The notes below the pieces were generated by a model. It did no database searches and had not been told where the DNA came from. It saw only the letters and a list, made by a program, of their open reading frames with translations. Below, piece by piece: positions 16,546 through 47,930 of a DNA stretch of 56,244 nt. The stretch lies in IMG/VR virus record IMGVR_UViG_3300032291_002769, positions 1 through 56,244 of that record; one strand, given 5' to 3'. A program made the position numbers and the translations under genes. Origin of the DNA: a virus. Position 1 is the first letter of the stretch. Every line of letters starts with the position of its first letter.

Positions 16546-17500
16546 TTAATCTTGCTGTGTTTCTTCTTAAACGACGAAGTGCTGGTGCTTCTATATATCC
16601 TGGTAATTCATCCGATACCTTCATTTCTTCTCCACAAAGATTATCTTCCGGTAATGATCCATTGTATTTTCTCATTTCATTTTTTTCCTCTTCAGAAAAT
16701 AACCTATAATTTGGAATTGTTGTTGGTGATTTTAAATCACATTCCATTAAAATGATTTGAAGGATATTCATTGGAAGACCGGTCTGTATTGTATCAATTT
16801 GTTTATCTTCCTGGTTATATGTTTTAAACACATATTGTTCGTGATCATCCATTATTTCATATGGTTGTGGGAAACTTCTATAAAAAGCAAACTTTTTATT
16901 TTCTTTTTTATCGATAAGATAAATTAAGATTCCTCTTGAATGATTGTAGAAATAACCGGGATCATTAATCATTGCTGTACACCATTTTGTTTGATACCCA
17001 TATGAACAAGATGACGCATAGGTTAATGGTTTAAAAATCATATAATTATCGTCTTCAAAAATCTTGTGAATTTCTTTTTTTGATTTTTTAAACAACTCAC
17101 GATTCTTGGCTTCAAATAATTGTGTTTCCAACATATCCCAGGAATCGTATTTACTGATGTCTTTTTCATCAATTACACCTTTTTCCATTAGTTCTGTAAA
17201 CTCAACAAATCTTTCCATACTATTCCAAGTAAATATGGAATCACAAAAAACCATTCTTGATAACATATTTTCAAAAGAATTATTTGGTACAACTCTTTCT
17301 AATGGGGGTTGGTTTGTTTCTTGTATTCTAAATGTTCTATTTTCATCTTGTTCTTTTTGCCACGATTCAATTCTTTTATTGAGCATCTTAACCAAAAACT
17401 GTGAATATTTTTTGGTTTTACTAGTATCAAATCTTTCCAACATATTGGCAAGATTTAAATTTAAAATTTCATTTTCTTTTTTTAATTTCTTAATCCCCAT
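16529..17500 (-). CDS. WCT-motif protein, paralogue 1
   Basis: Read from the ATG at 17500 (323 residues); a TTG six codons earlier is the only longer option. Residues 145-215 hold a domain shared with two other proteins in this window: EDDNYMIFKPLTYASS, TKWCTAM (172-178), then a Tyr-rich stretch and LIYLIDKKENKKFAF. Residues 30-45 (YSQFLVKMLNKR) and DISKY also match paralogue 2. The function of this domain is unknown to me; the invariant Trp-Cys-Thr suggests an active site or metal/ligand site. The C-terminus may continue in another frame (16387-16545). Confidence 0.7.
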   Translation of the reverse strand: MGIKKLKKENEILNLNLANMLERFDTSKTKKYSQFLVKMLNKRIESWQKEQDENRTFRIQETNQPPLERVVPNNSFENMLSRMVFCDSIFTWNSMERFVEFTELMEKGVIDEKDISKYDSWDMLETQLFEAKNRELFKKSKKEIHKIFEDDNYMIFKPLTYASSCSYGYQTKWCTAMINDPGYFYNHSRGILIYLIDKKENKKFAFYRSFPQPYEIMDDHEQYVFKTYNQEDKQIDTIQTGLPMNILQIILMECDLKSPTTIPNYRLFSEEEKNEMRKYNGSLPEDNLCGEEMKVSDELPGYIEAPALRRLRRNTARLIPAHS

Positions 17501-17527
17501 TTTATTTATTTTATACAATTTGTAATC

Positions 17528-17767
17528 TTACCTTAAAACAAATGCGTGAACTATTATTACAATTGTCTCTTTTATACCATCTGATGTTACAGCTCTATCT
17601 TCTTTTACAATAATATCCATAAATCCAAGATCTTCTTTTAATCTATTAGCTTGGATTTCAACTTCTTTTTTTGCGTCTTCTTCATTTTTGAAGAATCCAA
17701 AATACGAATCACAATTTCCGGTTTTATCACAAACTCCAAAAATCACTTCTCTTACTGGTTTTATCAT
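17528..17767 (-). CDS. hypothetical protein, 79 residues
   Basis: A small alpha/beta protein (REVIFGVCDKTGNCDSYFGF; EEDAKKEVEIQANRL; IVIIVHAFVLR) of about the size of a ferredoxin-like fold. It overlaps the next upstream gene by 4 bases. Not recognised. Confidence 0.55.
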   Translation of the reverse strand: MIKPVREVIFGVCDKTGNCDSYFGFFKNEEDAKKEVEIQANRLKEDLGFMDIIVKEDRAVTSDGIKETIVIIVHAFVLR

Positions 17768-18030
17768 AATCTATTTGCTAGTTGTTTTATTAATAATTCT
17801 TCTTCATTTGTTAATCGGTGATAAGAGTTCCAAATTTTACTTAAATTATCTCTCAATTCTTTTTCTCCGTTTGACTCTTCATCACCTCTAACAATTTTTC
17901 TTATTTCAGTGTTTGGGTGTGTATCTAATATTCCATCTTCGTATAACCATTCGGCCATATTATTTTTATCACTTCTACCCATTTGGTCATAAACCTCATC
18001 CAAATAAACATCTATTCTAACGTAACTCAT
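17764..18030 (-). CDS. hypothetical protein, 88 residues
   Basis: An alpha-helical acidic protein (VDVYLDEVYDQMGRSDKNN-like start; REIRKIVRG; RLTNEEELLIKQLANRL). It heads a unit driven by the promoter at 18044-18074, with a 13-base leader. Small helical phage proteins of this length often bind DNA or host factors, but nothing here proves it. Confidence 0.55.
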   Translation of the reverse strand: MSYVRIDVYLDEVYDQMGRSDKNNMAEWLYEDGILDTHPNTEIRKIVRGDEESNGEKELRDNLSKIWNSYHRLTNEEELLIKQLANRL

Positions 18031-18043
18031 TTTTTTCTTTTTA

Positions 18044-18074
18044 CAAAGTTAATAAAAAAAAGTGACTCCATCAA
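18044..18074 (-). promoter_or_regulatory. Bacteroidota-type promoter
   Basis: Minus strand: TTG (18074-18072), 20-base spacer, TAACTTTG (18051-18044), ATG 13 bases later. The -33 element overlaps the stop codon and hairpin of the RNA ligase gene. Confidence 0.8.
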
Positions 18075-18084
18075 TGGGAGTCAC
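18058..18084 (-). terminator. terminator overlapping the RNA ligase stop codon
   Basis: Minus-strand stem GTGACTCC / GGAGTCAC (18084-18077 with 18069-18062), loop of 7, then seven T. The left arm encodes the last residues of the ligase and the stop codon lies in the loop. Confidence 0.8.
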
Positions 18085-19204
18085 CAACATTATTTTTTTC
18101 ACTGAATATACTGTAGTCCGGATTTATCACTTTGCTCACCTTTCCTCGGTTACCTGATACCGATTTAACAACAACACCTTCGTGTGGTACTTTGGTACCT
18201 TCTATGAAATTATCAAACACAAATTTATCCTGTTCTTCTTTAGACCAATTGCCCTGGTATAATAACTCAACTTGTGGTAACTGGAGACAATTAAAATGTA
18301 CTGTCTCATTTATGTATGGTTGGTATTCTCCATCAACTTGGACATCAAATCCAGCAAATTTTATGTCGGTTAATCCGTAGTCATAATTTTTTTGTATACC
18401 AGCACCGTATATCTCACCGTATATAACAACACCTTCACTCAAGTCAAATGGTTCGTAAGTATCTTTTACGTGATCCCACAATTTTTGACGTATGTCGTAT
18501 TTTATAGCCACTTCTTCCCATACGTTGGTGTCATAAAAACCTTGTGAATCAGATCCTTTTTCGACATTATGACTACCCAAAACATATTCAAATGCAACCC
18601 ATTGATTTCCGAAAAACATTTTAACACGGTCCCATAAAGAAAGTTTTTTCTTTCTTACTATTCCGTATCTGGCATTTGTTCCGTGTAACTTACGAGTTAT
18701 AACAACCTCATCTTCTTCACTGAACATATCGGGTACATTCTTCTGGTTAGGAAACTTGTAGTAAACTTTGAAGTTAGGGTTTTGGTGGTATTTTATTTTA
18801 CGACCACCAACACTTAACTGAACGGTTTTAACTGGGGGTTCAAACTTAGTTATCCCAAGTATAGTCATCATATCATCACCTTCATTTACGTTATTCTCCA
18901 AAGATTTTGGTGCCAAGTATTTGAATGGTATTAATAAACACTCGGAATAAACACCACGAAGTTTAACAGTACGTACTCTTTGTCCTTTGCGAAGGTAGTT
19001 AGTTACTTCCATTAAGTCAGATAGTGCTTGTGGTATTACCGCGTCAGTAGTCGCAACAACAACCTTATCTCCAACCTGGTATTCACCTTTTTTAGTTATG
19101 GCATTCCACCCACCAACAGTAACTAACTCTATGTTATCAGCATTTGGTATTTCAGACACGGATCCTATTTTTCCTACGTATGCAACACTATTTAAATTTT
19201 CCAT
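18071..19204 (-). CDS. RNA ligase, DRB0094 (Rnl5-like) family
   Basis: A 377-residue nucleotidyltransferase. Residues 1-115 form the N-terminal OB-like domain typical of the DRB0094 family (VGDKVVVATTDAVIP, RKGQRVRTVKLRGVYSE). The ligase core has motif I KLHGTNAR with the adenylated lysine at residue 172, motif III-like FEYVLGS, motif IIIa/IV VVIYGEIYGAGIQ and EGVVVKS, and a final lysine-containing motif V near VSKVINPDY. These enzymes seal 3'-OH/5'-phosphate RNA nicks. In phages RNA ligase usually repairs host or phage tRNA cut by anticodon nucleases. It sits near a cREC protein, a P-loop kinase and phosphatases. Confidence 0.88.
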   Translation of the reverse strand: MENLNSVAYVGKIGSVSEIPNADNIELVTVGGWNAITKKGEYQVGDKVVVATTDAVIPQALSDLMEVTNYLRKGQRVRTVKLRGVYSECLLIPFKYLAPKSLENNVNEGDDMMTILGITKFEPPVKTVQLSVGGRKIKYHQNPNFKVYYKFPNQKNVPDMFSEEDEVVITRKLHGTNARYGIVRKKKLSLWDRVKMFFGNQWVAFEYVLGSHNVEKGSDSQGFYDTNVWEEVAIKYDIRQKLWDHVKDTYEPFDLSEGVVIYGEIYGAGIQKNYDYGLTDIKFAGFDVQVDGEYQPYINETVHFNCLQLPQVELLYQGNWSKEEQDKFVFDNFIEGTKVPHEGVVVKSVSGNRGKVSKVINPDYSIFSEKNNVGDSH

Positions 19205-19206
19205 TT

Positions 19207-19467
19207 TTATATATTTTCAAATTCTTCTTTTACTGAATCTATTTCTTCTTTCAACCTTTCAAGTTCTTTGGATAACATTTCTTTAATAGCTCCTTTGTTA
19301 TAAAGACTAACCTCATCTTTTCTTGGAAAAGACCCTCCTATTGAGTAACCAATTGTTACACCTAAAGAACAAGATTTTAACGCAGATTCCAATTTATACT
19401 TCTGTCTTTCCAACCTATCAAGATCTTCTTTAACTTTTTTCGCTTGTTCAAATTTTTCTAATTCCAT
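19207..19467 (-). CDS. coiled-coil protein upstream of the RNA ligase
   Basis: An 86-residue helical hairpin: two charged coiled-coil arms (FEQAKKVKEDLDRLERQKYK and MLSKELERLKEEIDSVKEEF) flanking a Gly/Ser-rich middle. It ends 3 bases before the ligase ATG, so it is in the same unit and could be a ligase partner. Its promoter leaves only 4 bases before the ATG. Confidence 0.6.
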   Translation of the reverse strand: MELEKFEQAKKVKEDLDRLERQKYKLESALKSCSLGVTIGYSIGGSFPRKDEVSLYNKGAIKEMLSKELERLKEEIDSVKEEFENI

Positions 19468-19471
19468 AATA

Positions 19472-19502
19472 CAAAGGTATAAATTGTTTTTTAATTATTC
19501 AA
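19472..19502 (-). promoter_or_regulatory. Bacteroidota-type promoter, RNA ligase unit
   Basis: Minus strand: TTG (19502-19500), 20-base spacer, TACCTTTG (19479-19472), ATG after 4 bases: a leaderless arrangement. The -33 TTG lies in the upstream gene's last codons. Confidence 0.85.
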
Positions 19503-20013
19503 CGTCGTCTTCAAGATATTTCTTCATAGATCTTGGTTCAACAAAATCCCACTTCTTACTTTCAAATTCTTCAATCCATTCTTTCAAATCTTCTCTTGTC
19601 CATATTGGTCCAAAAGAAGGTCTGTATTGGAATGGTACATTATCTTTATTTTCCCACTCATCAAGTCGTTGTGTTACATCATCAATAAAGTTTTTAGTTT
19701 TAGTGTGTTTAATCCACTCTCTGTAATCATCCTCGGATTTAATAAACATAACATCACCATAATTATAAAACTCCATTTCAGGAAATTCTAAATTTGGGTT
19801 GTTAGTATAAACATCAACAATACCATTGTCTCCATTATATGAATCACAAAGTTCTCTTAAAGAATATAAACTACTTGGTCTTTCTTCCCAGACACTACCG
19901 AACTGACGGACAGAACAGATATATAAATAACCATCTTCATAAGAATTTATTTTATATTCAATTTTATTTCGTAATAAAATAAGTTCGTCCATTGTTAGTT
20001 TATCTAAGTTCAT
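19495..20013 (-). CDS. hypothetical protein, 172 residues
   Basis: An acidic, Trp/Tyr-rich protein (VRQFGSVWEERPSSLYSLREL, YRPSFGPIWTREDLKEWIEE). The N-terminal helix (TMDELILLRNKIEYKI) is followed by a mixed domain. It overlaps the FlbD-like gene's stop by 4 bases. No known family that I can name. Confidence 0.6.
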   Translation of the reverse strand: MNLDKLTMDELILLRNKIEYKINSYEDGYLYICSVRQFGSVWEERPSSLYSLRELCDSYNGDNGIVDVYTNNPNLEFPEMEFYNYGDVMFIKSEDDYREWIKHTKTKNFIDDVTQRLDEWENKDNVPFQYRPSFGPIWTREDLKEWIEEFESKKWDFVEPRSMKKYLEDDVE

Positions 20014-21395: not shown

Positions 21396-22628
21396 TTATT
21401 TTTTGTATTTGTAGGAAGTTTCTATTGGTCTTTTACCATATCTTTTTTCCATAAGTTTTTGGTGTAGGTCCCAATTTAATATAGATTCATTTGTTTGTTC
21501 TTTTTCATCTGGGATTAATGAATAAACTTTTGATATTCTTTTAATTAGTTTTGTTGCAACATAATTAAATCTTTCACATTCATCTTTAAAAAAATCCATC
21601 TCTCTATCAGCATATTTTGTAACGTGATTTTTATATTTTTTAAGAACTTTTGATTTATCTTCTGTTGGTTCTTTTCCACCAAAAAGTTGTGATAAAGGAC
21701 CCATTTTTGAAAAGATCTGTTCTTCGTGTGACAATACCATATTTTCAAAAAACCCAACTTTAAGACCTGATAAATTAATATAAACTAACTCTAAAACTAT
21801 TTTTATATTTTCTTCAGGTGAGTTTTCTTTTGGTTTTTCTCCGGCATGTTCAAGTAATGCAAATACTTTGTCCATTTGATCGTATAAACCTTGAATCAAG
21901 TATTCAAATGAAAAGTTTTGTATTCTTTTTAATTCTTTGATAACATCGTCTTTCATCAAAAATTCATAAAACTTTTCTTTTGTTATTCCATTTTGTATCA
22001 TTCTTGATGCAATCTCTGTCGGTCTAACAACATTTTCTTCGTTCTGAATAAAATAACTATACCTCATAAATTCATTTATAACTGGTATTCCAAAATTTAA
22101 CTTTCCGGATGCGTATGTCTGATAATCAGCGGTATTGCCGGCCAAACCTTTTGACTTTTTAGTTCTTCTAAATCTGTGCATTAATTCGTGGGCCATTATA
22201 GAAGTATTATGTATTTTTTGTTCTATAAAAACCATATACAAATCAATTGGTTCCCAACCTTCAGGAACTACGAACTGGATGTGTAAATCTATGGTTGATG
22301 TTTCCTTATTTAATTGCATCATTATGCCTTCATCAAAATCAAATTCATTTCCAACACCCATTGCTGCGATTATAGGTTCAGAACCATCATAATCTTCTAA
22401 TTCATCAACTCTAACAATAAAATTTAAATTTGTAAAATTTACATCAGAAACAGTTAAATCAATTTTAATATCCTCAAACAAATATTCTTCTTTGTCGGTT
22501 GAGTTTATTTCCTTTAATTTATCTTTAACAATATTGTATAATACTCTGGCTTCGTTTAGAATATTTTCTGGAACACCTGCAGCTTCTTTGATTAAATTAT
22601 ATTGAGATTCTGTTATAATGATTTTCAT
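21396..22628 (-). CDS. HExxH metallopeptidase-like protein with N-terminal ESQY tag
   Basis: A 410-residue protein. It begins MKIIITESQY, matching the first ten residues of the sigma factor at 24944 in nine of ten positions, followed by ENILNEA. In the middle, MAHELMHRF places an HExxH zinc-protease motif (H147, E148, H151) on a helix; a third ligand could be among later Glu/His residues. The C-terminal 200 residues are helical. It is probably a zinc peptidase acting in or after infection; the tag suggests packaging into the virion. A TATTTATT motif lies 3 bases before the ATG. I do not recognise a named peptidase family. Confidence 0.7.
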   Translation of the reverse strand: MKIIITESQYNLIKEAAGVPENILNEARVLYNIVKDKLKEINSTDKEEYLFEDIKIDLTVSDVNFTNLNFIVRVDELEDYDGSEPIIAAMGVGNEFDFDEGIMMQLNKETSTIDLHIQFVVPEGWEPIDLYMVFIEQKIHNTSIMAHELMHRFRRTKKSKGLAGNTADYQTYASGKLNFGIPVINEFMRYSYFIQNEENVVRPTEIASRMIQNGITKEKFYEFLMKDDVIKELKRIQNFSFEYLIQGLYDQMDKVFALLEHAGEKPKENSPEENIKIVLELVYINLSGLKVGFFENMVLSHEEQIFSKMGPLSQLFGGKEPTEDKSKVLKKYKNHVTKYADREMDFFKDECERFNYVATKLIKRISKVYSLIPDEKEQTNESILNWDLHQKLMEKRYGKRPIETSYKYKK

Positions 22629-22631
22629 AAT

Positions 22632-22639
22632 AATAAATA
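22632..22639 (-). promoter_or_regulatory. TATTTATT motif before the metallopeptidase gene
   Basis: Minus strand TATATTTATTATTATG: the motif ends 3 bases before the start codon. It belongs to the second promoter class suggested for virion genes. Confidence 0.4.
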
Positions 22640-22654
22640 TAATGGAGTTGTGAT

Positions 22655-23308
22655 TTAACCCACAACTCCAATTAAATCATCCAAATGGTGATCTCCAGAC
22701 ATATCGGACCCAACTGGTCTTTTATCCATAATTTTGATTATTTCATCAACACTATATGGATCCAGTCCGTTTCCATCAACACCAACATCCATTTTTTTAC
22801 CATTACCGAATTTAGCTTCTCTTCCAAGATGTACGTGTCCGTGTAAATGGATAACACCTTTATTTAGACCATGCCAGCTCTGTAATGGATAATGACATAA
22901 AACAAAGTTTCTATCATTTATTTTAACTTCAAGGTAGTGTTGAACACTTAAAAATCGTCCTTGAATAAAATCTCTATTTTTTTCTATACTTGTATCATGA
23001 TTTCCTAATATAAGGTGAATGTTTTTACACACCAGTCTATCAAGGAATAATCCGATATTATCAAATCCCCCAAATGAAACATCACCTAACATTATTAGTG
23101 TGTCGTCTTGTCCTACCATATTGTTAATACCGTCAATAAGTCTTTCGTTCATTTGTTCAATAGTTTCAAAATCCCTAACCGAATCAACTGGTATTTGTCC
23201 ATCCTGGGTTCTCCAGTTTGTCACACCACGAACAATATTTTTATGACCGTAGTGTGTGTCTGAAGTTATATATACTTTTCCTGTTGTTAATATTTTTTTA
23301 AAGTTCAT
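22655..23308 (-). CDS. calcineurin-like metallophosphoesterase
   Basis: A 217-residue protein with all five metallophosphatase blocks: SDTHYGHKN (residues 16-24), MLGDVSFGG, ILGNHD, CHYPL and HLHGHVH. These ligate two metal ions. Family members remove phosphates from nucleic-acid ends, cyclic nucleotides or proteins. Close to the P-loop kinase and cREC genes, a 2',3'-cyclic phosphate or RNA 3'-end phosphatase role is attractive, but general phosphodiesterase activity is equally possible. It lies 12 bases downstream of a WCT-motif gene. Confidence 0.88.
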   Translation of the reverse strand: MNFKKILTTGKVYITSDTHYGHKNIVRGVTNWRTQDGQIPVDSVRDFETIEQMNERLIDGINNMVGQDDTLIMLGDVSFGGFDNIGLFLDRLVCKNIHLILGNHDTSIEKNRDFIQGRFLSVQHYLEVKINDRNFVLCHYPLQSWHGLNKGVIHLHGHVHLGREAKFGNGKKMDVGVDGNGLDPYSVDEIIKIMDKRPVGSDMSGDHHLDDLIGVVG

Positions 23309-24931: not shown

Positions 24932-24940
24932 GTATTTATT
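24931..24940 (+). promoter_or_regulatory. AGTATTTATT motif before the sigma factor gene
   Basis: Plus strand CAAGTATTTATTAATATG: the motif ends 3 bases before the sigma factor start codon. AAGTATTTAT also precedes the genes at 30515, 40908 and 44834 (minus). Confidence 0.45.
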
Positions 24941-24943
24941 AAT

Positions 24944-25501
24944 ATGAAAATTATAATTTCTGAATCACAATATAAAAAACTTTATAAGTTATTAACCGAA
25001 AATGTTAATTTTGATAATGTTTATCGTGAACTTTTTCCAAAAATATATAAAACTGTTTGTTTAAAATATGCAAAAGGTGACAGTGAAAAAGCACAAGATT
25101 TTTGTCAGGATGGTTTTATAAAGGCATATAATAAATTAAGTCAGTTTAGAGGTGATAATCTAAATGGTTGGGTTGCTATGATTGTAAGGAACAATATTAT
25201 TGATGAATTAAGAAAAGAAAAAGGTTCAAAAATTCAAGATTTTGATTTTGGTAGATATGATGCAAAACAAGAAGAATATGATGATTTATTTATGGGTAGG
25301 TATAGTGAAAAAGATATTCAAGATGCAATAAACACATTGTCACCACAATTTCAAAAAGTTTTTAGAATGTATTATTTTGATGGAATGAAACACCAAGAAA
25401 TTGCAAAAAAATTAGGTATTTCCGATAGTACATCAAAAACAAACTTACTTAGAGGAAAAGCAAAAGTTAAAGATTTCCTAGAAAATTTAAAGGAGGCCTA
25501 A
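24944..25501 (+). CDS. ECF-like sigma factor with N-terminal ESQY tag
   Basis: A 185-residue sigma-70 family protein. After MKIIISESQYKKLYKLLTEN (1-20) comes region 2 (about 26-92; QDFCQDGFIKAYNKLSQFRG and GWVAMIVRNNIIDELRK) and region 4 (about 126-180; LSPQFQKVFRMYYFDG, HQEIAKKLGISDST), with no region 1.1 or 3: the ECF layout. It would direct RNA polymerase to phage promoters. The first 20 residues are not part of sigma domains; they match the tag of the metallopeptidase at 21396-22628 and end in an LLTE site like T4 prohead-protease sites. This suggests, without proof, packaging and injection. It is one of few plus-strand genes here. Confidence 0.88.
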   Translation: MKIIISESQYKKLYKLLTENVNFDNVYRELFPKIYKTVCLKYAKGDSEKAQDFCQDGFIKAYNKLSQFRGDNLNGWVAMIVRNNIIDELRKEKGSKIQDFDFGRYDAKQEEYDDLFMGRYSEKDIQDAINTLSPQFQKVFRMYYFDGMKHQEIAKKLGISDSTSKTNLLRGKAKVKDFLENLKEA

Positions 25502-29021: not shown

Positions 29022-30515
29022 TTAATCGGTTCTCATTACAATATAATCGGTCCCATTAATATTAATTTGATCATACTCTCCATCGTATCCATTAAGATCA
29101 CTGTAACTACCATCTCGAACTAAACTATCTAATAAATCATCTTTATCAATAAAACTTATCATAGCTCTAAAATCATAACCCATTTCTTCTAAAAATCCAA
29201 GTGGGTCTCTTCTTATATCATCTAATCTATCTTCTACAGCTTCCTCAATTTCATTCTCATTAGGATCACCATCCGGATTATATTTTATTTCTTGTATTTC
29301 ATATTCAATATCTGAAATTCTACTATCACGGTCGTCTTTGTGGTCTTGTGTATCTTCATCATCATATATTTGATGTGGAGAAACAACAGCACCATCTTTA
29401 TATAAAACCCAATGACTTCTATTTGGGTCTGTACTTGTATTTTTATATTGGAATCTATTACCTTCTACGTCTTCAAAATCAAACACATCGCCGTCTTCTC
29501 TTGTTGGTTCAGATATTGGGGCTCTTACACCTTCGTTCTCATATACCCACTTTTCCATTTCAAGTAACCAAATTTCTTCTTCTTGACTATCACTTAAATC
29601 TTTTTCAACACTGTAATTATCCGGGTCCTCTCTTACCCACTCTTCAATCATACTTTCAAATTCATCAGCAACGCTATCGCCATCAATATGATATGAAATT
29701 GTATCACTATTAAGATATGTTACTGGATCATCGACCCAATCTTGATAGTAGTCTCTCATTGATTCATCAGCTTCACTTTCTGTTCCAACAGCAATTACAA
29801 AATCTTCACTTATTGACCTAAATGAATCTAATTCATAATGACTACCATCTGGGATTAAATCATAAACATCGGCATATTCACCCTCAAGTTCATCAACTCT
29901 TTCTTGTACCTCATCAAATTCGCTAGATAATTCATCATATCTTTCTTCATCATCTTCTTGTTCCATTTGAGTTTCAAGTTCCGATAATTTTGTTTTTAAT
30001 TCTCTTAACTCGTTATCTTCGTCTTCCATTCTAGCTTTTAATAAACCTTGTTGTACGGCATATTCAAAAGCAGCATTTGCTCTTTCACCTTCATTATCTG
30101 TATCGTTTAAATTCCAAGCGTCTTCTTCTCTTCTTTCTTCAGCGTCAGCTAATTCTCTTTGTCTTTTTCTTCTTGTAAGTTCTTTTTCCCAAGGTGTCTG
30201 CCAAATACGAGGATATCCAGTAACTTCTACATTGTCCAAAGATTTTATATTTGTATGTGAGATATCTAAATTTCCCTCAACTCTAATTGGACCTAAATCT
30301 GTAATTCTTTCATCACCATTTAAACTTAAATTACCAGTAACAACTAATTTCTTACCTCTAAATTTTGGTAATCGTAATAAACCGTGAGCTTGACCGGCAA
30401 CCTTATTTAAAAGGTCCATATATTCTTGTGGAGAAATTCTTACTTCCTCAACTTCTTCCAAAATTAATTTCTTAATTCTTGATATTAATTGTGATTCTTT
30501 AATAAATCTTTTCAT
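29022..30515 (-). CDS. highly acidic protein with N-terminal tag (possible internal virion protein)
   Basis: A 497-residue protein. It opens FIKESQLISRIKKLILEEVE, a tag-like amphipathic helix with ESQ and LILEE. Residues 55-105 (NLSLNGDERITDLGPIRV, GNLDISHTNIKSLDNVEV) look like a short leucine-rich or beta-solenoid module. The remainder is extremely acidic with coiled coils (ELRELKTKLSELETQMEQEDD; EEWVREDPDNYSVEKD). Internal proteins injected with DNA would fit, but acidic phage proteins can also mimic DNA. A GTATTTATA motif lies 5 bases before the ATG. Family not recognised. Confidence 0.65.
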   Translation of the reverse strand: MKRFIKESQLISRIKKLILEEVEEVRISPQEYMDLLNKVAGQAHGLLRLPKFRGKKLVVTGNLSLNGDERITDLGPIRVEGNLDISHTNIKSLDNVEVTGYPRIWQTPWEKELTRRKRQRELADAEERREEDAWNLNDTDNEGERANAAFEYAVQQGLLKARMEDEDNELRELKTKLSELETQMEQEDDEERYDELSSEFDEVQERVDELEGEYADVYDLIPDGSHYELDSFRSISEDFVIAVGTESEADESMRDYYQDWVDDPVTYLNSDTISYHIDGDSVADEFESMIEEWVREDPDNYSVEKDLSDSQEEEIWLLEMEKWVYENEGVRAPISEPTREDGDVFDFEDVEGNRFQYKNTSTDPNRSHWVLYKDGAVVSPHQIYDDEDTQDHKDDRDSRISDIEYEIQEIKYNPDGDPNENEIEEAVEDRLDDIRRDPLGFLEEMGYDFRAMISFIDKDDLLDSLVRDGSYSDLNGYDGEYDQININGTDYIVMRTD

Positions 30516-30520
30516 ACAAA

Positions 30521-30528
30521 TATAAATA
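30521..30528 (-). promoter_or_regulatory. TATTTATA motif (AAGTATTTATA) before the acidic gene
   Basis: Minus strand TTAAGTATTTATATTTGTATG: motif ends 5 bases before the ATG. Confidence 0.45.
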
Positions 30529-34009: not shown

Positions 34010-35959
34010 TTAACATCCGTTTGCTTCTCTCATTTCCGGTGGGAAATTAATATCCCAAAACTCACCAACTGGATCAATATATCTTGTAATTTCTTTTGGT
34101 AATGATTCAACATCAATAGCACAATTAATTACTGAAATAAAATCAAGACAAGCTAAAGTACCTACCGATGCTGGAAGCGTAGTCAAACTTCTATTATTTG
34201 TCAAATTAAGGAATGTTAATTTTCTACAGTTACCAATTGATTCTGGTATTTCGTTAACAATGTTATCCAATACTAATGTTGATAAATTTTCAAAGTTACC
34301 AATAGATTCCGGTATTTTGAAGATGATTTCATCGTTTGATTTATTTTCGATTTGTAGGAATGTTACATTCTCTGGTAATACCTCAAATAAATCTTCTAAT
34401 CCAAACATTCTTATATATTTAGCATTTGAATCATTCGGGTATTGTATCGTTACGTAATCAGGATCAAAAGCAGACTCAAGTTCATTTCTATATTTAGCTT
34501 TTAAGTTTCTAAAATAAGGTCTCATTTCTTTACTCATAATAACCTCCATATCGTTTTCACTTAAATCTTTAAGTGATTTTTGAAGTAATTTTTCTCTCTT
34601 TTTAGAAACGTAATAAGCCATAGCACTAGGTGTTAGTTTTCTAACCATACCGGCACTTAATTCATTTCCTAAACCAATATATTTTTTCTGTAATTCTTCT
34701 GGTAGGTTACCAAATATTTCATCGCCACCTTGCGTGCTTTTGAAATCTGGACTTCTTAATTCCATCCATAATTCAACCTCTTCTTCACTACCTAATTCTG
34801 AAATTGGATCTGTTGTTTTTAAATTATAGTATTTGTACTTATTCAGTTTTTCCATATCTTCATCACTATATGGTTTTGCTTCAAAATATTGTTCCTTACC
34901 TTGTAAGACTGGGATTTTACTTAATATTTCTTTCCAAGGAATTACAGTACCACCTGAAAATCTTCCGGAGTTAGAACCATCTGCCAATCTTTTATCACCA
35001 TATCTATCAACTAATATTACTGAAGCGTAATTTAAATCAGAAGTTGGTAAGTTTTTATTTATTACATAATACAATGTTAAATTTTGATTTAATCGGTAAT
35101 TGTAATAGTAATTTGACGAACCTTCCCAGGATGTACACCATCTTCTATCTGGCGCATATTTTTTTCTAATATTAATACACTTATGTTTTTGATCCGGAGC
35201 AAAGATTAACACATCATCATCTTCATATTTGATATCAACATCACTTGTATCAATTTCTGGAACATCATATTCACTTTCTTCCATTGGTGTGTAACCATCA
35301 ACAACGTGTTCAAATTCTTCAAAGTTCATAAACTTACTTAATTTTGTGTTGATTGGTATTAACTCAAAGTGTCTAACAAATCTTTTAGCTCTTGGTAAAA
35401 ATGTTGTCATTGCATCTTCTTCTGGATTTTCATCGTGGAATTTCTGTGTGATTGCCGCAACAAGTTCATTTATACCTTGGTTGTTAAACTTTGAAAAGTA
35501 CTTTTCTACTAAGCTATTTAGCTGTGATGGATTAAATGTTGTTACATCTTTTTTAAATTCTTTAAGTTGTGGAAAATGTGTTTTAACTTCAAAAAACTTC
35601 TTGATATTTAATTTTGTTAACTGTAAGTCAACTTGTACTTTATCTCTCCAGGTATTAAGGTAATCTTGTACCATACCTTCTAAATCTTTTTTTGATTTTT
35701 GTTTTGTTACTTTATCAGCAATCAAACTTTTAATTTTTTCATATGAATGTCTAAAGATATCCTTATCTTCATTAGAGAATGCAGCTTTGAATCTTTCAAA
35801 ATCAGCAATTGTTTTTCTAATGTCATCTTCTGTATCTTCAGTTTCTTTTGAGTACTTATCAACAAGTTTTTTAACTGTTGATTCAGGATATTCTAATAAT
35901 ATTTTTCTTGTATTATAATTTTCTTTTACAACTTTAGAAAGTACTTTGATTAATTCCAT
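34010..35959 (-). CDS. WCT-motif protein fused to leucine-rich repeats, paralogue 3
   Basis: A 649-residue, three-part protein. Residues 1-25 (LIKVLSKVVKENYNTRKILL) form a tag-like helix ending in LLE. After a helical stretch, residues 243-330 carry the WCT domain: DDDVLIFAPDQ, RRWCTSWEG (272-280), Tyr-rich stretch, LTLYYVINK, matching the two other paralogues. Residues about 535-625 contain leucine-rich repeats (IPESIGNFENLSTLVLDNI, IPESIGNCRKLTFLNLTNN). LRRs bind proteins and are common in injected bacterial effectors; they are rare in phages. It is probably a virion-packaged or host-acting protein; biochemical activity unknown. Confidence 0.72.
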   Translation of the reverse strand: MELIKVLSKVVKENYNTRKILLEYPESTVKKLVDKYSKETEDTEDDIRKTIADFERFKAAFSNEDKDIFRHSYEKIKSLIADKVTKQKSKKDLEGMVQDYLNTWRDKVQVDLQLTKLNIKKFFEVKTHFPQLKEFKKDVTTFNPSQLNSLVEKYFSKFNNQGINELVAAITQKFHDENPEEDAMTTFLPRAKRFVRHFELIPINTKLSKFMNFEEFEHVVDGYTPMEESEYDVPEIDTSDVDIKYEDDDVLIFAPDQKHKCINIRKKYAPDRRWCTSWEGSSNYYYNYRLNQNLTLYYVINKNLPTSDLNYASVILVDRYGDKRLADGSNSGRFSGGTVIPWKEILSKIPVLQGKEQYFEAKPYSDEDMEKLNKYKYYNLKTTDPISELGSEEEVELWMELRSPDFKSTQGGDEIFGNLPEELQKKYIGLGNELSAGMVRKLTPSAMAYYVSKKREKLLQKSLKDLSENDMEVIMSKEMRPYFRNLKAKYRNELESAFDPDYVTIQYPNDSNAKYIRMFGLEDLFEVLPENVTFLQIENKSNDEIIFKIPESIGNFENLSTLVLDNIVNEIPESIGNCRKLTFLNLTNNRSLTTLPASVGTLACLDFISVINCAIDVESLPKEITRYIDPVGEFWDINFPPEMREANGC

Positions 35960-39648: not shown

Positions 39649-40908
39649 TTATTGAGTCTTTTGATTATAACCCATTAATTGTTGTATTCTGCTAAACTCC
39701 TCGTTTAATTTTTTATTTTCAACACTTTCTGTTTTTATTTTAATTCCATTACCACCATTTTCACCAACACCATCAGTTACAGGTTGTTTTGATTTACGAT
39801 AAGCAGTCATTTTTGCTTTATGATATTTTTGTTCTTTTCTTTTTTTGTTAATTCTTTCACCAAGTTCAGTTTCTTCAGCATTAGCCCATTCTGGATTATT
39901 ACCAGTTCTTGATGAACCAGCAATATTATCGTCCATCCATTTATTATCGTATTGAACTTCGTCTGGTACTAAATCCTCCATTCCTGGGTGCGTAAAATCA
40001 TCTAAAAATTCTTTACCATCATCAGACATTGTATATTTTTTTGCGCTCATTTTAGCTAATTGTCCATTTCCTTTTGGAAAATGCTTTGGGTTTGTTTCGT
40101 ACTTACCTTTAGAACCGTCTTTTAAATAATCCGTAAGTTTTTTAGCTACAGAATCAAGGTATTCTTTATTTTCTTTACCAGAACCTTTGTGTGCTTTTTC
40201 ATAAGCTGAAAGTCCTTTTGGTTGTACACCTTTTTTAATATTATCTTTTTTCTTTTCTTCATTAACAATTCCTTCGATAATATCAATAATTTCATTTTCA
40301 GTAAACAATGCCGATTCTTTACCATCGACTAATCTATATAGTGTTTCATCAAGGTCACCTTTTACCGGATAAGTTTTACCGTCAACTTTAAATGATTTTT
40401 TCCCTGCGTCTATGGCCTTCTCTCGGGCACCACTAAAAGCGTTTCCTTCCTCAACTTCTTCATCCATTCCAGCTGTAAAGTTTTGACTAGAACCAAACTC
40501 TAAAATATCACCTTTTTTCATTCCACATTCAACACACTGTCCTTCATAAAATTCACTAGAACCACATTCACAAACATTACCTTCCATATATTCACCTTTA
40601 TTGCCGCACTCCATACATTCTTTTTCTTTCATCTCACCTCTTAATTGTTTGAAGTCGTATCTATCTAGTCTACCGTTTTTATTTTTATCTAGTTTGCGTT
40701 GTTTACCATAAAGTTTTTCCATAACTTCACCGGACATTTTTCCACATTCTAAACATTCACCTTCAACCATTGGTGAACCACATTCACAAATTTCACCTTC
40801 AGACATATGATCTCTTTTAATTTTTCCCATAACATCATTAGCCTTATCTGCCAATGTTTCTGCTATAATATTATTAACTAATTTTTTTAAATATTCCTTA
40901 TTATTCAT
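39649..40908 (-). CDS. zinc-ribbon and EF-hand protein with N-terminal tag (possible internal virion protein)
   Basis: A 419-residue protein. N-terminal tag-like helix YLKKLVNNIIAETLADKAND with IIAE. Two similar zinc-ribbon units: CECGSPMVEGECLECG (41-56) and VCECGSSEFYEGQCVECG (about 112-129), plus CMECGN between. A complete EF-hand loop DKNKNGRLDRYD at residues 74-85 could bind calcium. The rest is lysine-rich and low-complexity, and the end FSRIQQLMGYNQKTQ looks like a processed virion motif. Probably a structural or internal protein. An AAGTATTTATT motif lies 14 bases upstream. Confidence 0.7.
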   Translation of the reverse strand: MNNKEYLKKLVNNIIAETLADKANDVMGKIKRDHMSEGEICECGSPMVEGECLECGKMSGEVMEKLYGKQRKLDKNKNGRLDRYDFKQLRGEMKEKECMECGNKGEYMEGNVCECGSSEFYEGQCVECGMKKGDILEFGSSQNFTAGMDEEVEEGNAFSGAREKAIDAGKKSFKVDGKTYPVKGDLDETLYRLVDGKESALFTENEIIDIIEGIVNEEKKKDNIKKGVQPKGLSAYEKAHKGSGKENKEYLDSVAKKLTDYLKDGSKGKYETNPKHFPKGNGQLAKMSAKKYTMSDDGKEFLDDFTHPGMEDLVPDEVQYDNKWMDDNIAGSSRTGNNPEWANAEETELGERINKKRKEQKYHKAKMTAYRKSKQPVTDGVGENGGNGIKIKTESVENKKLNEEFSRIQQLMGYNQKTQ

Positions 40909-45373: not shown

Positions 45374-45403
45374 CAAAGATATAAATATTTTTTAATCTAC
45401 CAA
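45374..45403 (-). promoter_or_regulatory. Bacteroidota-type promoter with no gene downstream
   Basis: Minus strand: TTG of TTTTG (45403-45401), 19-base spacer, TATCTTTG (45381-45374). A perfect consensus match. It lies just past the stop of the cytosine methyltransferase gene and faces a terminator, not a gene. Confidence 0.8.
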
Positions 45404-46294
45404 AATTTCTTGTTTAATATTTTTAAAAATATGTGCAATCACATCAACGGTCCATCCATTACCAATCATATTTTTTCTTTGATTAAGAGATGCTAATGAT
45501 GTATAACCGTCTGGAAGTGTTTGTAGTCTTTCATATTCTGTTATATTCAACTCACGCAGATTACCATTAACAACAACACCATAGTTACAGGCGGTGTTTA
45601 ATGTGTTTGTTTTACCGTTACTTACTCTACCTCTTCTATTTTGACTCTTCGGAAATTCTAAATTAACACAATCACCCTCTTTTGCATATAAGTAACCAGT
45701 TTTAGTTCCGTTCTTGATTTTAAAACCTTCTTCATTTATATCAAGTACAAGTATATGGTCATTAATTATTTTTTCTTCACCAGTTGGTGTAAGGATGTCC
45801 AATATATGAATATTCTTATCCTCAATGTTTTTATCTAATGGAATGTTTGTCCAATAAAGTCTTTGTCTTTTTTGTGCTGAAAATAATTTACTATCAATCA
45901 TTACTGGTTCAACACCAATAGCTTCTGTTATAATATTTTCCCATTCCTTTTTCATTACAACATTTTCAAGTAAAAAATAGGTTGGTTTAACCTCATTTAA
46001 TATTCTAACATATTCCCAAAATAAACCACTCTTACCATCAAAACCAGTATTGTCTCCAGATCTACTAAAAGACTGACAAGGTGATCCTCCAATTAATAAA
46101 TCAATCGTTGGTAATTTTGATGTATCTAAACCAACCACACTTCCTAGTTGAACTGTGTTTGGGAAATGGTGTTGTGTTACACTAATTGCGTGTTTATCAA
46201 TTTCAGAAGCAAAATAATTTTCTACCTCAACACCAGCTCTTTGTAATGCCAGTTGACCACAAGAAATTCCATCAAATAGACTCAATACATTCAT
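45392..46294 (-). CDS. DNA (cytosine-5) methyltransferase, copy B
   Basis: A 300-residue C5 methyltransferase: motif I VLSLFDGISCGQLAL (3-17), motif IV GGSPCQSFS with the catalytic Cys, motif VI ENVVMKK, motif VIII QKRQRLYWTNIP, and C-terminal motifs IX-X (NITEYERLQTLPDGYTS, IGNGWTVDVIAHIF). It probably protects phage DNA from host restriction. Paralogue of the next gene upstream, which it overlaps by 23 bases. No restriction partner is next to these two. Motif I context (SLFDGISCG) resembles DNMT3-like phage enzymes. Confidence 0.92.
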   Translation of the reverse strand: MNVLSLFDGISCGQLALQRAGVEVENYFASEIDKHAISVTQHHFPNTVQLGSVVGLDTSKLPTIDLLIGGSPCQSFSRSGDNTGFDGKSGLFWEYVRILNEVKPTYFLLENVVMKKEWENIITEAIGVEPVMIDSKLFSAQKRQRLYWTNIPLDKNIEDKNIHILDILTPTGEEKIINDHILVLDINEEGFKIKNGTKTGYLYAKEGDCVNLEFPKSQNRRGRVSNGKTNTLNTACNYGVVVNGNLRELNITEYERLQTLPDGYTSLASLNQRKNMIGNGWTVDVIAHIFKNIKQEILVD

Positions 46295-47126
46295 ATTCTA
46301 TGTTTTTAAAAATATGTGCAATCACATCAACGGTCCAACCATTACCTAATAAATTAAACCTTTGCGTGTTTGAAACTATTGATGAATAATTGTCTGGTAC
46401 TGTTTGTAGTCTTTCACATTCAAGTGGTGAAAATAATCGATCTTCTCCTGTTATAGTTTTTATTTCAACATAGCATTTTGGTGTTATATTTTTACCCCAT
46501 CCGTGAGCTAACTCACGAGTAAGTGTTGGTGCTTTGCCGGTTGCTTTATAATTTTTAGCGTAATAAAGTTGTGCTTGGATTGTTTTTGGTGGAAGTATCT
46601 TATGTTCTCCAGAATAATCAATAATATCTTTAACTAAAATTCCTTTATCTTCCGGTTGTCCAATACCTGGTATATTTGTCCAGTATAACCTTTCTCTACT
46701 TTGAGCTGAAACTAAATTACTATTTATTCTTATTGGTTCTACACCCATATGTTCCGTGATTACTTGTTCGTGTTCTTTTTTCATTTTAACATTTTCAAGT
46801 AAAAAATATTTTGGGTTTAACTCATCTCGTAATCTTACAAATTCAAAAAACAACTTACTTCTTGGGTCCTCAAAATTTAACCTTTTGCCGGCAAATGAAA
46901 ATCCTTGACAAGGTGACCCACCAAACATTAAATCAATTTGTGGTAGGTCACTTCCTTTAACATCTAAAATGTCACCAATTTGGATTGTTTCCGGATAGTT
47001 GTGTTGTGTTACCTGGATGGCATATTTATCAATTTCTGAAGCAAAATACTTATCATACTTTATCCCAACCCTATTAAGGGCAATTTGACCACAGCTCATT
47101 CCGTCGAAAAGAGAAAGTACATTCAT
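46272..47126 (-). CDS. DNA (cytosine-5) methyltransferase, copy A
   Basis: A 284-residue C5 methyltransferase with SLFDGMSCGQIAL (5-17), GGSPCQGFSFAG (catalytic Cys), ENVKMKKEH, QSRERLYWTNIPG and a C-terminus LLGNGWTVDVIAHIFKNI identical in its last part to copy B. The target-recognition region between motifs VIII and IX differs from that of copy B, so the two probably methylate different sites. It lies 3 bases from the RpoD-like sigma gene stop. Confidence 0.92.
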   Translation of the reverse strand: MNVLSLFDGMSCGQIALNRVGIKYDKYFASEIDKYAIQVTQHNYPETIQIGDILDVKGSDLPQIDLMFGGSPCQGFSFAGKRLNFEDPRSKLFFEFVRLRDELNPKYFLLENVKMKKEHEQVITEHMGVEPIRINSNLVSAQSRERLYWTNIPGIGQPEDKGILVKDIIDYSGEHKILPPKTIQAQLYYAKNYKATGKAPTLTRELAHGWGKNITPKCYVEIKTITGEDRLFSPLECERLQTVPDNYSSIVSNTQRFNLLGNGWTVDVIAHIFKNIEYECIESI

Positions 47127-47129
47127 ATC

Positions 47130-47930
47130 TTATATATAATCAAATAATTCAGATGATTCATTACGAAGTCTACGAAGAGCTTTTTCTTTTATCTGTCTAA
47201 CCCTTTCTTTTGTAAGGTTAAAATCAGAACCAATGTCTTCTAAAGTTCTTGGTGTTCCGGTAAGACCAAAGTAATCACCTATGATAGATTTTTCACGGTC
47301 ATCTAAAACATTTAGTAATGATAATAACTTATCTTTTAAAATGTCTTTTGTATCAAACCCAGCGTCTGGTGCTACTGCGTCCGGATTTTCAATTAGGTCA
47401 ATAAGTGTATCGCCTTCCTCATTGATATTCATATCAAGATTGATGATTGAAGGTAGTGATGTGAACTTGTCATCAAGTTTTTTGCCGGATTGTTCAACCT
47501 CTTTTTTGGCTTTATGTAAATCTTGGACAACATTAACTGGGAGTCTAATTGTTCTGGCATTGTCATTTAGTGACTGGATAATTGATTGTTTAACCCACCA
47601 TACAGCATAAGATATAAACCTCAAATCCTTATTCCAATCAAAGTTTTTAATTGCTTTCATAAGACCAAAGTTACCTTCAGCAATTAAATCTGGAAGATCA
47701 AGACCTTGATTTTGATACTGTTTTGCAACAGTAATTACAAATCTTAAATTACCTTCAAGTAATTCTTCTTCTATTTTCTTTCTTTCTCTTTCAGAAATCT
47801 CATCAGACTTCATTTTTATAGCCAATTCTTTTTCACGATCAGGTGTCATAACCTTAATCTTTCTAATATCTTTTAGGTAGTGATAAATCTCTTCCTGGTT
47901 GATTGGGGCACCTGTGTTTTTTTCTTTCAT
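47130..47930 (-). CDS. RpoD-like sigma-70 factor
   Basis: A 266-residue group 1/2-type sigma factor: region 1.2 (EIYHYLKDIRKIKVMT), region 2 (NLRFVITVAKQYQNQGLDLP, AEGNFGLMKAIKNFDW, FISYAVWWVKQSIIQSL), region 3 and region 4 (LEDIGSDFNLTKERVRQIKE). Size and order match the short Bacteroidota housekeeping sigma factor. Encoded by a phage, it may steer host polymerase to phage or TAnnTTTG-type promoters. It is co-oriented with two methyltransferases downstream and a 172-residue gene upstream. Confidence 0.93.
   Translation of the reverse strand: MKEKNTGAPINQEEIYHYLKDIRKIKVMTPDREKELAIKMKSDEISERERKKIEEELLEGNLRFVITVAKQYQNQGLDLPDLIAEGNFGLMKAIKNFDWNKDLRFISYAVWWVKQSIIQSLNDNARTIRLPVNVVQDLHKAKKEVEQSGKKLDDKFTSLPSIINLDMNINEEGDTLIDLIENPDAVAPDAGFDTKDILKDKLLSLLNVLDDREKSIIGDYFGLTGTPRTLEDIGSDFNLTKERVRQIKEKALRRLRNESSELFDYI

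Follow-up and report, generated by a model that had tools for sequence, protein, structure and literature searches.

The sigma factor gene and its N-terminal extension

The window, by which we mean the whole stretch of DNA analysed (all 56,244 bases of the IMG/VR virus record IMGVR_UViG_3300032291_002769, GC 29.5%), encodes on its plus strand, at positions 24944-25501, a protein whose translation opens MKIIISESQYKKLYKLLTENVNFDN and which matches the Pfam models of sigma region 2 (PF04542, 2.8e-12, residues 36-93) and region 4 (PF08281, 6e-16, residues 124-174) as well as phrog_1740, RNA polymerase sigma factor (2.2e-23). PF04542, PF08281, PF04545 and PF07638 all scored above their cut-offs, and no Pfam model for sigma region 1.2 or 3 was among the matches at E ≤ 0.01. 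By this architecture of regions 2 and 4 the protein is an ECF sigma factor, for which binding to the RNA polymerase core and a role in transcription are predicted. The same architecture is seen by alignment in crAss-like cr7_1, in Bacteroides phage DAC16 and in ECF sigma factors of Bacteroidota (∼25-34% identity to the window protein), and the inspected ones among these lack the N-terminal tag described here.

The first 20 residues (MKIIISESQYKKLYKLLTEN) are N-terminal to the sigma domains and, because Pfam region 2 begins at residue 36, lie outside them, in agreement with a preliminary description of this DNA. The end of the extension had there been likened to a T4 prohead-protease site, and LLTE/N (a slash marks a predicted cut throughout) does fit the [LI]xE motif of gp21. 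Processing had been expected near residue 18, whereas the cut predicted here falls after E19; a second I-x-E inside the tag, at E7, could give an extra or alternative cut.

A minus-strand ORF at 21396-22628 encodes a protein with the HExxH motif HELMH whose first residues are MKIIITESQYNLIKEAAGVPE, and the translations confirm the initial observation that it agrees with the sigma factor in nine of the first ten residues. It had no Pfam or PHROG match. Homology of the HExxH and sigma bodies was considered and rejected, as no Pfam or PHROG family common to both was found. In 11 of 11 aligned homologues of the HExxH protein E15 and A16 are invariant despite varying tag length. Its AlphaFold model is of middling quality (pLDDT 67.8, falling below 50 for residues 1-17, with residues 7-17 helical at low confidence) and gave no fold match in the PDB at E ≤ 0.001.

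The third tagged ORF (29022-30515, minus strand) opens MKRFIKESQLISRIKKLILEEVEE, and homologues of its body bear five other tags (in contigs G012, G004/G006, G002, L169 and L012), all of which have [LI]xE ahead of the common body. At E ≤ 1e-3 the collection of named phages contained no relative of this 497-residue protein or of the HExxH protein. Two ORFs with a different kind of tag are listed as candidates (Table 1): that at 39649-40908 is only a candidate because it scores below the cut-off of the tag profiles, and that at 34010-35959 contains an LRR-like stretch (residues 546-613, below the Pfam cut-off). Two neighbouring minus-strand ORFs at 45392-47126, presumably DNA cytosine methyltransferases, have a similar start (MNVLSLFDG), possibly reflecting a duplication.

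Table 1. Features of the window and of related contigs.
Feature	Location	Strand	Basis or remark
Window: TATTTAT, late-promoter-like, upstream of sigma gene	24933..24939	+	ends 4 nt before ATG
Window: sigma-factor tag MKIIISESQYKKLYKLLTE, residues 1-19, next residue N	24944..25000	+	held-out profile score and motif statistics
Window: ECF-type sigma body (regions 2 and 4), predicted mature form from N20	25001..25498	+	Pfam, PHROG
Window: HExxH protein body (HELMH), putative metalloprotease	21396..22583	-	no Pfam or PHROG match
Window: HExxH protein tag MKIIITESQYNLIKE, predicted cut LIKE/AAGVPE	22584..22628	-	11 aligned homologues
Window: TATTTAT upstream of HExxH gene	22633..22639	-	
Window: third tagged protein, body (497 aa in all, acidic)	29022..30455	-	homologues carry five other tags
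Window: third tagged protein, tag MKRFIKESQLISRIKKLILE, predicted cut LILE/EVEE	30456..30515	-	held-out profiles
Window: TATTTAT upstream of third tagged gene	30522..30528	-	
Window: candidate with different tag MELIKVLSKVVKE, then N (V at P3); TATTTAT upstream	34010..35959	-	candidate only
Window: candidate with different tag MNNKEYLKKLVNNIIAE, then T; TATTTAT upstream	39649..40908	-	candidate only
Window: SigA-like second sigma factor without A/B tag	47130-47930	-	phrog_351, 2e-55
Sigma relatives with insert	L004 3787-4794; L012 4068-5081; L086 4051-5061		
Sigma junction LLTE/NVNFD	L002, L003		as in window
Sigma junction ILTE/NVDFD or ILTE/DVDFD	L004-L009		
Sigma junction ILIE/HNFNK	L010, L011, L014		
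Sigma junction RLKE/NFDFS	L012		
Sigma junction MLTE/GINFD	L013		
Sigma junction LLKE/NVDFN	L086-L088		
Sigma junction LLNE/VVDFN	L089-L093, L097-L100		
Sigma junction IINE/GFDFD	L094-L096		
Sigma junction LLKE/STELD	L101, L102		farther from sigma core
Tag examples in phage immuto	NC_055915: 117631, 118632, 103806, 1803 and 25061, 111675		

A module shared by unrelated proteins

The extension belongs to a family of N-terminal tags of which two main classes, A and B, were followed. The test set comprised 1,071 proteins in 466 body families from eight contigs (the window and seven relatives, three of the eight being parts of one phage). With profiles trained on tags from other contigs, 25 of the 466 families reached 10 bits or more at the N-terminus, and none of 76,673 internal positions did. 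The counts were identical when training was made stricter by removing every tag with a body homologue in the test set, which kept 34 of the 46 A and 89 of the 97 B tags. A chance likeness of two N-termini was considered and is ruled out by the same numbers. The search of related phages for the tag on other proteins, suggested in the preliminary description, thus had a positive outcome. Three of the 90 window ORFs of at least 60 aa carry a tag (the sigma factor, the HExxH protein and the ORF at 29022-30515), and 20 of 213 ORFs do so in G001, a related contig.

Degenerate DNA patterns for the two classes (A, MKIII[ST]ESQ; B, MKKxIRLTES) were also scanned against IMG/VR. Among the matches listed from the two scans there were 271 ORFs, 266 of them of at least 40 aa (the five shorter ones were dropped) and 244 of these unique. 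They fall into 143 body families (46 A and 97 B), an upper bound for those matches because families were split wherever blastp of residues 33 onward gave no match at E ≤ 1e-3. When 86 of the 143 tagged representatives among these matches were scanned (A of at least 120 aa, B of at least 150 aa), no more than 13 matched Pfam families and no more than 28 matched PHROGs. The tagged cargo includes endolysin-, lysozyme- and HNH/homing-endonuclease-like proteins, which are less obvious cargo.

The residues of the tag are written in many synonymous codons, e.g., TTA, CTT, CTA, TTG and CTG for Leu7 and TCN or AGT for Ser10, and this free variation indicates that the peptide is the conserved entity. 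The class-B pattern was absent from 395 of 395 Bacteroidota genomes and present, in 1 to 11 copies, in 18 of 22 tag-bearing contigs that encode an S77 protease (G003 was left out of this count, being the same phage as G001); a reversed-pattern control gave 0. A tblastn search of named phages with 23-residue tags returned nothing, which is no evidence of absence because the queries were short, and six tag fragments searched as text in a collection of open-access papers appeared in none of them. In another contig, G017, seven small ORFs were found through their tag region, six of them with a common body and the tag M[KR]IIITE[SN]QYKLIKEN.SLKEKL (ISE in one of the six), a tagged family that has multiplied in one phage.

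The L/I-x-E end and exchange of tags

Motifs were counted in residues 11-28, an interval that the search patterns leave free apart from part of residue 10. Among the matches listed, [LI]xE occurs in this interval in 94 of 97 type-B families (37.0±4.5 after shuffling) and in 34 of 46 type-A families (15.7±3.0), and is missing from 3 and 12 families, respectively. Among the same matches [LI]xD is depleted in type B (7/97, shuffle 26.9±4.0) and not enriched in type A (12/46, shuffle 10.3±2.6). Some other spacings are enriched as well, namely [LI]xxE in type A (26 of 46 families among the matches listed, shuffle 15.1) and [LI]xK in type B (70 of 97, shuffle 31.5). Of the 97 listed type-B families 85 have E22, after which conservation drops sharply, the commonest residue at position 23 being found in 29 of 97.

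T4 carries MKTYQEFIAE/A on IPII and IPIII, MAKINELLRE/S on gp24 and FLTE/A on gp23, the cut positions in gp23 and gp24 being assigned by motif. Compared by eye with MKTYQEFIAE, the A and B tags have in common only the start and an end of the L/I-x-E type, so that they would work like a capsid-targeting sequence (CTS) but show no sign of common descent with that of T4. In T4 the gp21 protease cleaves after L/I-x-E, and replacement of Glu by Asp at P1 blocks processing of the T4 tag (PMC9026906).

Several bodies occur behind more than one tag, with the change at the predicted cut: MNLQENIQRIKQMMGLLKE/GLHDTSWQN versus MKKIIRLTESELILLVKRVINE/GLHDTSWQN, MKSILKE/SGIRNIN versus MKIIITETQYKRLINE/SGIRDIN, and the HExxH body behind the four tags MKIIITESQYNLIKE/A, MGKIIITENQFNQLTKKLLSE/A, MAKIIITEKQMDLMVTQLLSE/A and MKDLIKKLLRE/A. 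In 14 families an A or B tag, as judged by profile, stands on one side of such a comparison only. At the homology boundary [LIVM]xE is present in 10 of the 14 partners and absent from four; random positions in the same partners gave a mean of 2.8 and a maximum of 8 in 1000 draws. On the tagged side a boundary site is present in nine families and absent in five, and sites stand on both sides in 8 of 14 families versus 7 of 63 families without an A/B tag. The broader list of 77 families, which contains many ordinary N-terminal divergences, has sites on both sides in 16. The protein at 17392-19899 of G001, with a weak DHH-phosphoesterase match, and its relatives (e.g., in L310) carry either a type-A tag with an INE or KE end or the seven-residue MKSILKE.

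Relatives of the sigma factor

A tag with [LI]xE precedes the sigma domain at all 30 sigma loci recovered in two scans (junctions in Table 1), despite changes in length, and a further tagged sigma factor, with LLLE/NLQF, is encoded by L400, an S77-bearing contig. The relatives in L004-L009, L012 and L086-L088 have an insert of about 150 residues after the tag, with a second predicted site between the insert and the sigma domain. This insert is hydrophobic and predicted at low confidence to be helical, with the pattern DPTG..DI..AI.Y..QGK..FALLSLISAIPG flanked by the two predicted cut sites; PL[ST]E/[GAS]W stands N-terminal to it in five of five aligned relatives, and the relative in L009 has VNQ where others have the upstream INE. 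It had no Pfam match, and the structure model of the two-domain sigma protein was poor (59.1). The insert could be a membrane-acting part released beside the sigma factor, and the window protein looks like the product of a deletion of this domain that fused the first tag to the second site.

Bacterial relatives bear on whether the extension also occurs in ECF sigma factors outside phages, which, according to the preliminary description, would speak against its proposal. It is absent from all eight found (26-34% identity to the window protein), and the tag is likewise absent from the four ECF proteins of named phages inspected. Five of the eight bacterial proteins do have [LI]xE near the start (QLIEGC, LLEDC or LLLEGC), at roughly double the distance from the sigma core. 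The motif alone is therefore no mark of a phage sigma factor, and the tag is the special part.

Prohead protease and capsid in tag-bearing contigs

The preliminary description also suggested a search for the prohead protease in related phages. The S77 family (PF03420) was found in 23 of 35 tag-bearing contigs and Gp23 (PF07068) in the same 23, comprising every listed contig of at least 100 kb together with L010, L011, L014 and L100; all 12 contigs of at least 240 kb have both. A tagged sigma factor and S77 are encoded on one contig in G001, G003 (the same phage) and G037. Neither S77 in the window nor the terminase, portal, protease and capsid proteins of G001 compared with it gave a match, the latter none better than E 0.21, and S77 was likewise not found in ten (G002 and G004-G012, all fragments) of an initial set of 12 related records. 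Among 18 control contigs, listed AT-rich viral contigs of at least 54 kb that were picked out by an arbitrary AT-rich pattern and are shorter than the tag contigs, six had S77 and none the class-B tag. Since S77 is thus not rare, its co-occurrence with the tag is supportive only and mildly informative.

G001 contains a T4-like head cluster of terminase, portal, protease and capsid genes. It overlaps G002 with 99.9-100% identity at both ends, so the two seemingly belong to a single phage with a genome of about 305 kb, and 57 of the 90 window ORFs have a match in G002, largely in the same order. Among 22 distinct capsid proteins, 21 have a predicted propeptide, with sites assigned by motif, that ends in [LI]xE/A (LINE/A, LIYE/A or LLTE/A); two capsid propeptides have V at P3, again as predicted by motif (LVTE/T in L375 and IVSE/A in Flavobacterium phage immuto, NC_055915). 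In G001 (118842-120698) and other capsids the propeptide end ENQAS.LINE/A resembles tag A (ESQY..LLTE), and the tag may therefore mimic a signal that belongs to the capsid protein. Two of 84,595 internal positions have the form E[NS]Q-x(2-6)-[LIV]xE, one of them in the capsid protein itself. Immuto is among the nearest cultured phages by capsid, which makes a host of the Bacteroidota probable.

An upstream motif shared with structural genes

TATTTAT stands within 60 nt upstream of 23 of the 26 tagged genes that have an upstream gap of at least 25 nt (shuffle 2.2), a count that excludes 6 of 38 tagged genes which overlap their upstream neighbour and 6 with a gap under 25 nt. Over all genes the motif precedes 25 of 38 tagged versus 109 of 627 untagged ones (24 of 32 tagged genes with a gap of at least 0), and per body family 15 of 18 tagged versus 59 of 193 untagged. 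It was found upstream of 9 of 16 genes in the structural region of G001 and of 67 of 257 other genes. When genes were labelled from their immuto homologues, the motif stood upstream of 7 of 10 structural ones (capsid, terminase, sheath, tube and others) versus 1 of 7 replication genes, four of the seven being dnaG orthologues. Since the motif is common to tagged and structural genes, the tagged genes are probably late, and TATTTAT is probably a late-promoter-like motif. It is unlike the T4 motif TATAAATA found upstream of alt, 22 and 24.

Just before the TATTTAT of the HExxH gene, within window positions 22629-22678 (minus strand), lies an inverted repeat, GGAGTTGTG...CACAACTCC, which also occurs, with changes, in G004, G006, G011 and G012 and is possibly a terminator or operator.

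A proposed capsid-targeted sigma factor and alternative explanations

The preliminary description compared the extension with the cleavable capsid-targeting sequences of T4. That analogy is strongly supported by what the computations found: a module shared by different proteins, its L/I-x-E end, exchanges near the boundary, conservation before the sigma domain, absence of the extension from the bacterial ECF relatives found, the upstream motif, and a protease and capsid of the T4 type in relatives. Late timing, packaging in the virion, cutting, ejection and an early choice of promoters, with the immediate start of transcription that had been proposed, are steps that we infer beyond these observations. 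On balance we consider it likely that the extension acts as a capsid-targeting propeptide like those of T4 and that the sigma factor is packed, cut, ejected and active early in infection. The sigma factor would be made late, from the type of promoter that serves structural genes; its 19-residue tag would draw it into the prohead core, where a gp21-type (S77) protease would cut after LLTE and leave the ECF sigma factor in the head. Ejected along with the DNA, it could then bind the host RNA polymerase ahead of any phage gene expression.

Alternatively, the tag might lead to the prohead while the sigma factor works as a normal late regulator of the cycle in which it is made, packaging then serving to remove it from the cytoplasm or being incidental. 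The late-promoter-like motif, by which the protein is probably made late, would suit this, as would the untagged SigA-like factor, which suggests that the phage already has a means of controlling transcription within the cell. A tag with [LI]xE kept at every sigma locus found would, however, be costly for a protein needed in the cytoplasm, and in T4 tagged cargo, Alt for example, acts once it has been ejected (PMC9026906). We regard this alternative as unlikely. Slightly less likely still is that the tag stays uncut and directs proteins elsewhere (a replication compartment, the membrane, or a place among scaffold-bound assembly factors), with L/I-x-E as a helix-capping or binding feature. The resemblance of some tagged families to lysis or nuclease proteins, the low-confidence helix at residues 7-17 of the HExxH model and the enrichment of some other hydrophobic/charged spacings would all fit. 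Against it stand the enrichment of [LI]xE over [LI]xD, the sharp drop of class-B conservation after the glutamate, swap boundaries that fall at this residue and the same motif at the end of the predicted gp23 propeptide.

Two further explanations seem to us very improbable. The likeness of the tags could reflect an expression element in the DNA around a common start region, given that both the upstream motif and the start region are common, but the variety of synonymous codons contradicts and rules out an element at the DNA level only, and class-B conservation reaches residue 22 and ends at the protease motif. That the extension belongs to the ECF sigma fold, to which its conservation in phage relatives and the near-start helix with [LI]xE in five of eight bacterial ECFs might point, is hardly to be credited either: the bacterial and named-phage ECFs start without the tag, for which reason this explanation was rejected; the same tag is found on unrelated proteins, and about 150 residues can separate it from the sigma domain.

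The capsid-targeted reading is close to known systems. Like the CTS system of T4 (IPI, IPII, IPIII and Alt, with gp21), it involves a short N-terminal peptide on different proteins with an L/I-x-E end, and a protease of the gp21 family and a capsid protein of the gp23 family, here in relatives; the T4 peptides MKTYQEFIAE/A and MAKINELLRE/S resemble some of the shorter tags in form, e.g., MKDLIKKLLRE/A. It differs from T4 in the sequences of the tags, in having two main tag classes plus further ones, in the many cargo families per phage group, a sigma factor among them, and in the host, which is probably of the Bacteroidota. T4 Alt, a virion ADP-ribosyltransferase packed in the head, acts on the host RNA polymerase upon entry (PMC9026906). 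Both proteins would thus act on RNA polymerase at entry, as predicted for the sigma factor, but where Alt modifies a subunit the sigma factor would shift promoter choice directly. Virion RNA polymerases are described for the giant phages 201phi2-1 and SPN3US and for N4 (PMC5694885, PMC9026906 and PMC5512222). They share with the present case the packing of transcription machinery, whereas here only a specificity factor would be delivered, borrowing the host core enzyme.

A wider reading, which in our judgement may equally well prove right or wrong, is that a broad programme of protein injection operates in large T4-like phages of Bacteroidota, in which dozens of unrelated late proteins per genome would carry interchangeable, removable head-entry tags. 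Among them would be an ECF sigma factor that seizes the host RNA polymerase as the DNA enters and that, in several relatives, follows a hydrophobic helical domain to which a second cut site connects it. No virion-delivered sigma factor was found, judging by listings, in a collection of open-access papers, which mostly does not extend to subscription papers. If the reading is true, a sigma factor delivered by the virion would let the phage decide which host promoters are used before any of its own genes is read, and the tag with its L/I-x-E end would provide a simple sequence rule for predicting injected proteins in a large group of uncultured phages; the tags themselves might be tried as labels for cargo. 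Part of the idea is testable now in immuto, a cultured relative with tags of other sequence.

In the immuto genome (NC_055915) other repeated N-terminal tags with L/I-x-E (MENFDLKKFLVENKLTTNSKILKE; MKKQILSEQFKRMQFLAGIITE) are found on different proteins, some of them encoded near head genes (Table 1).
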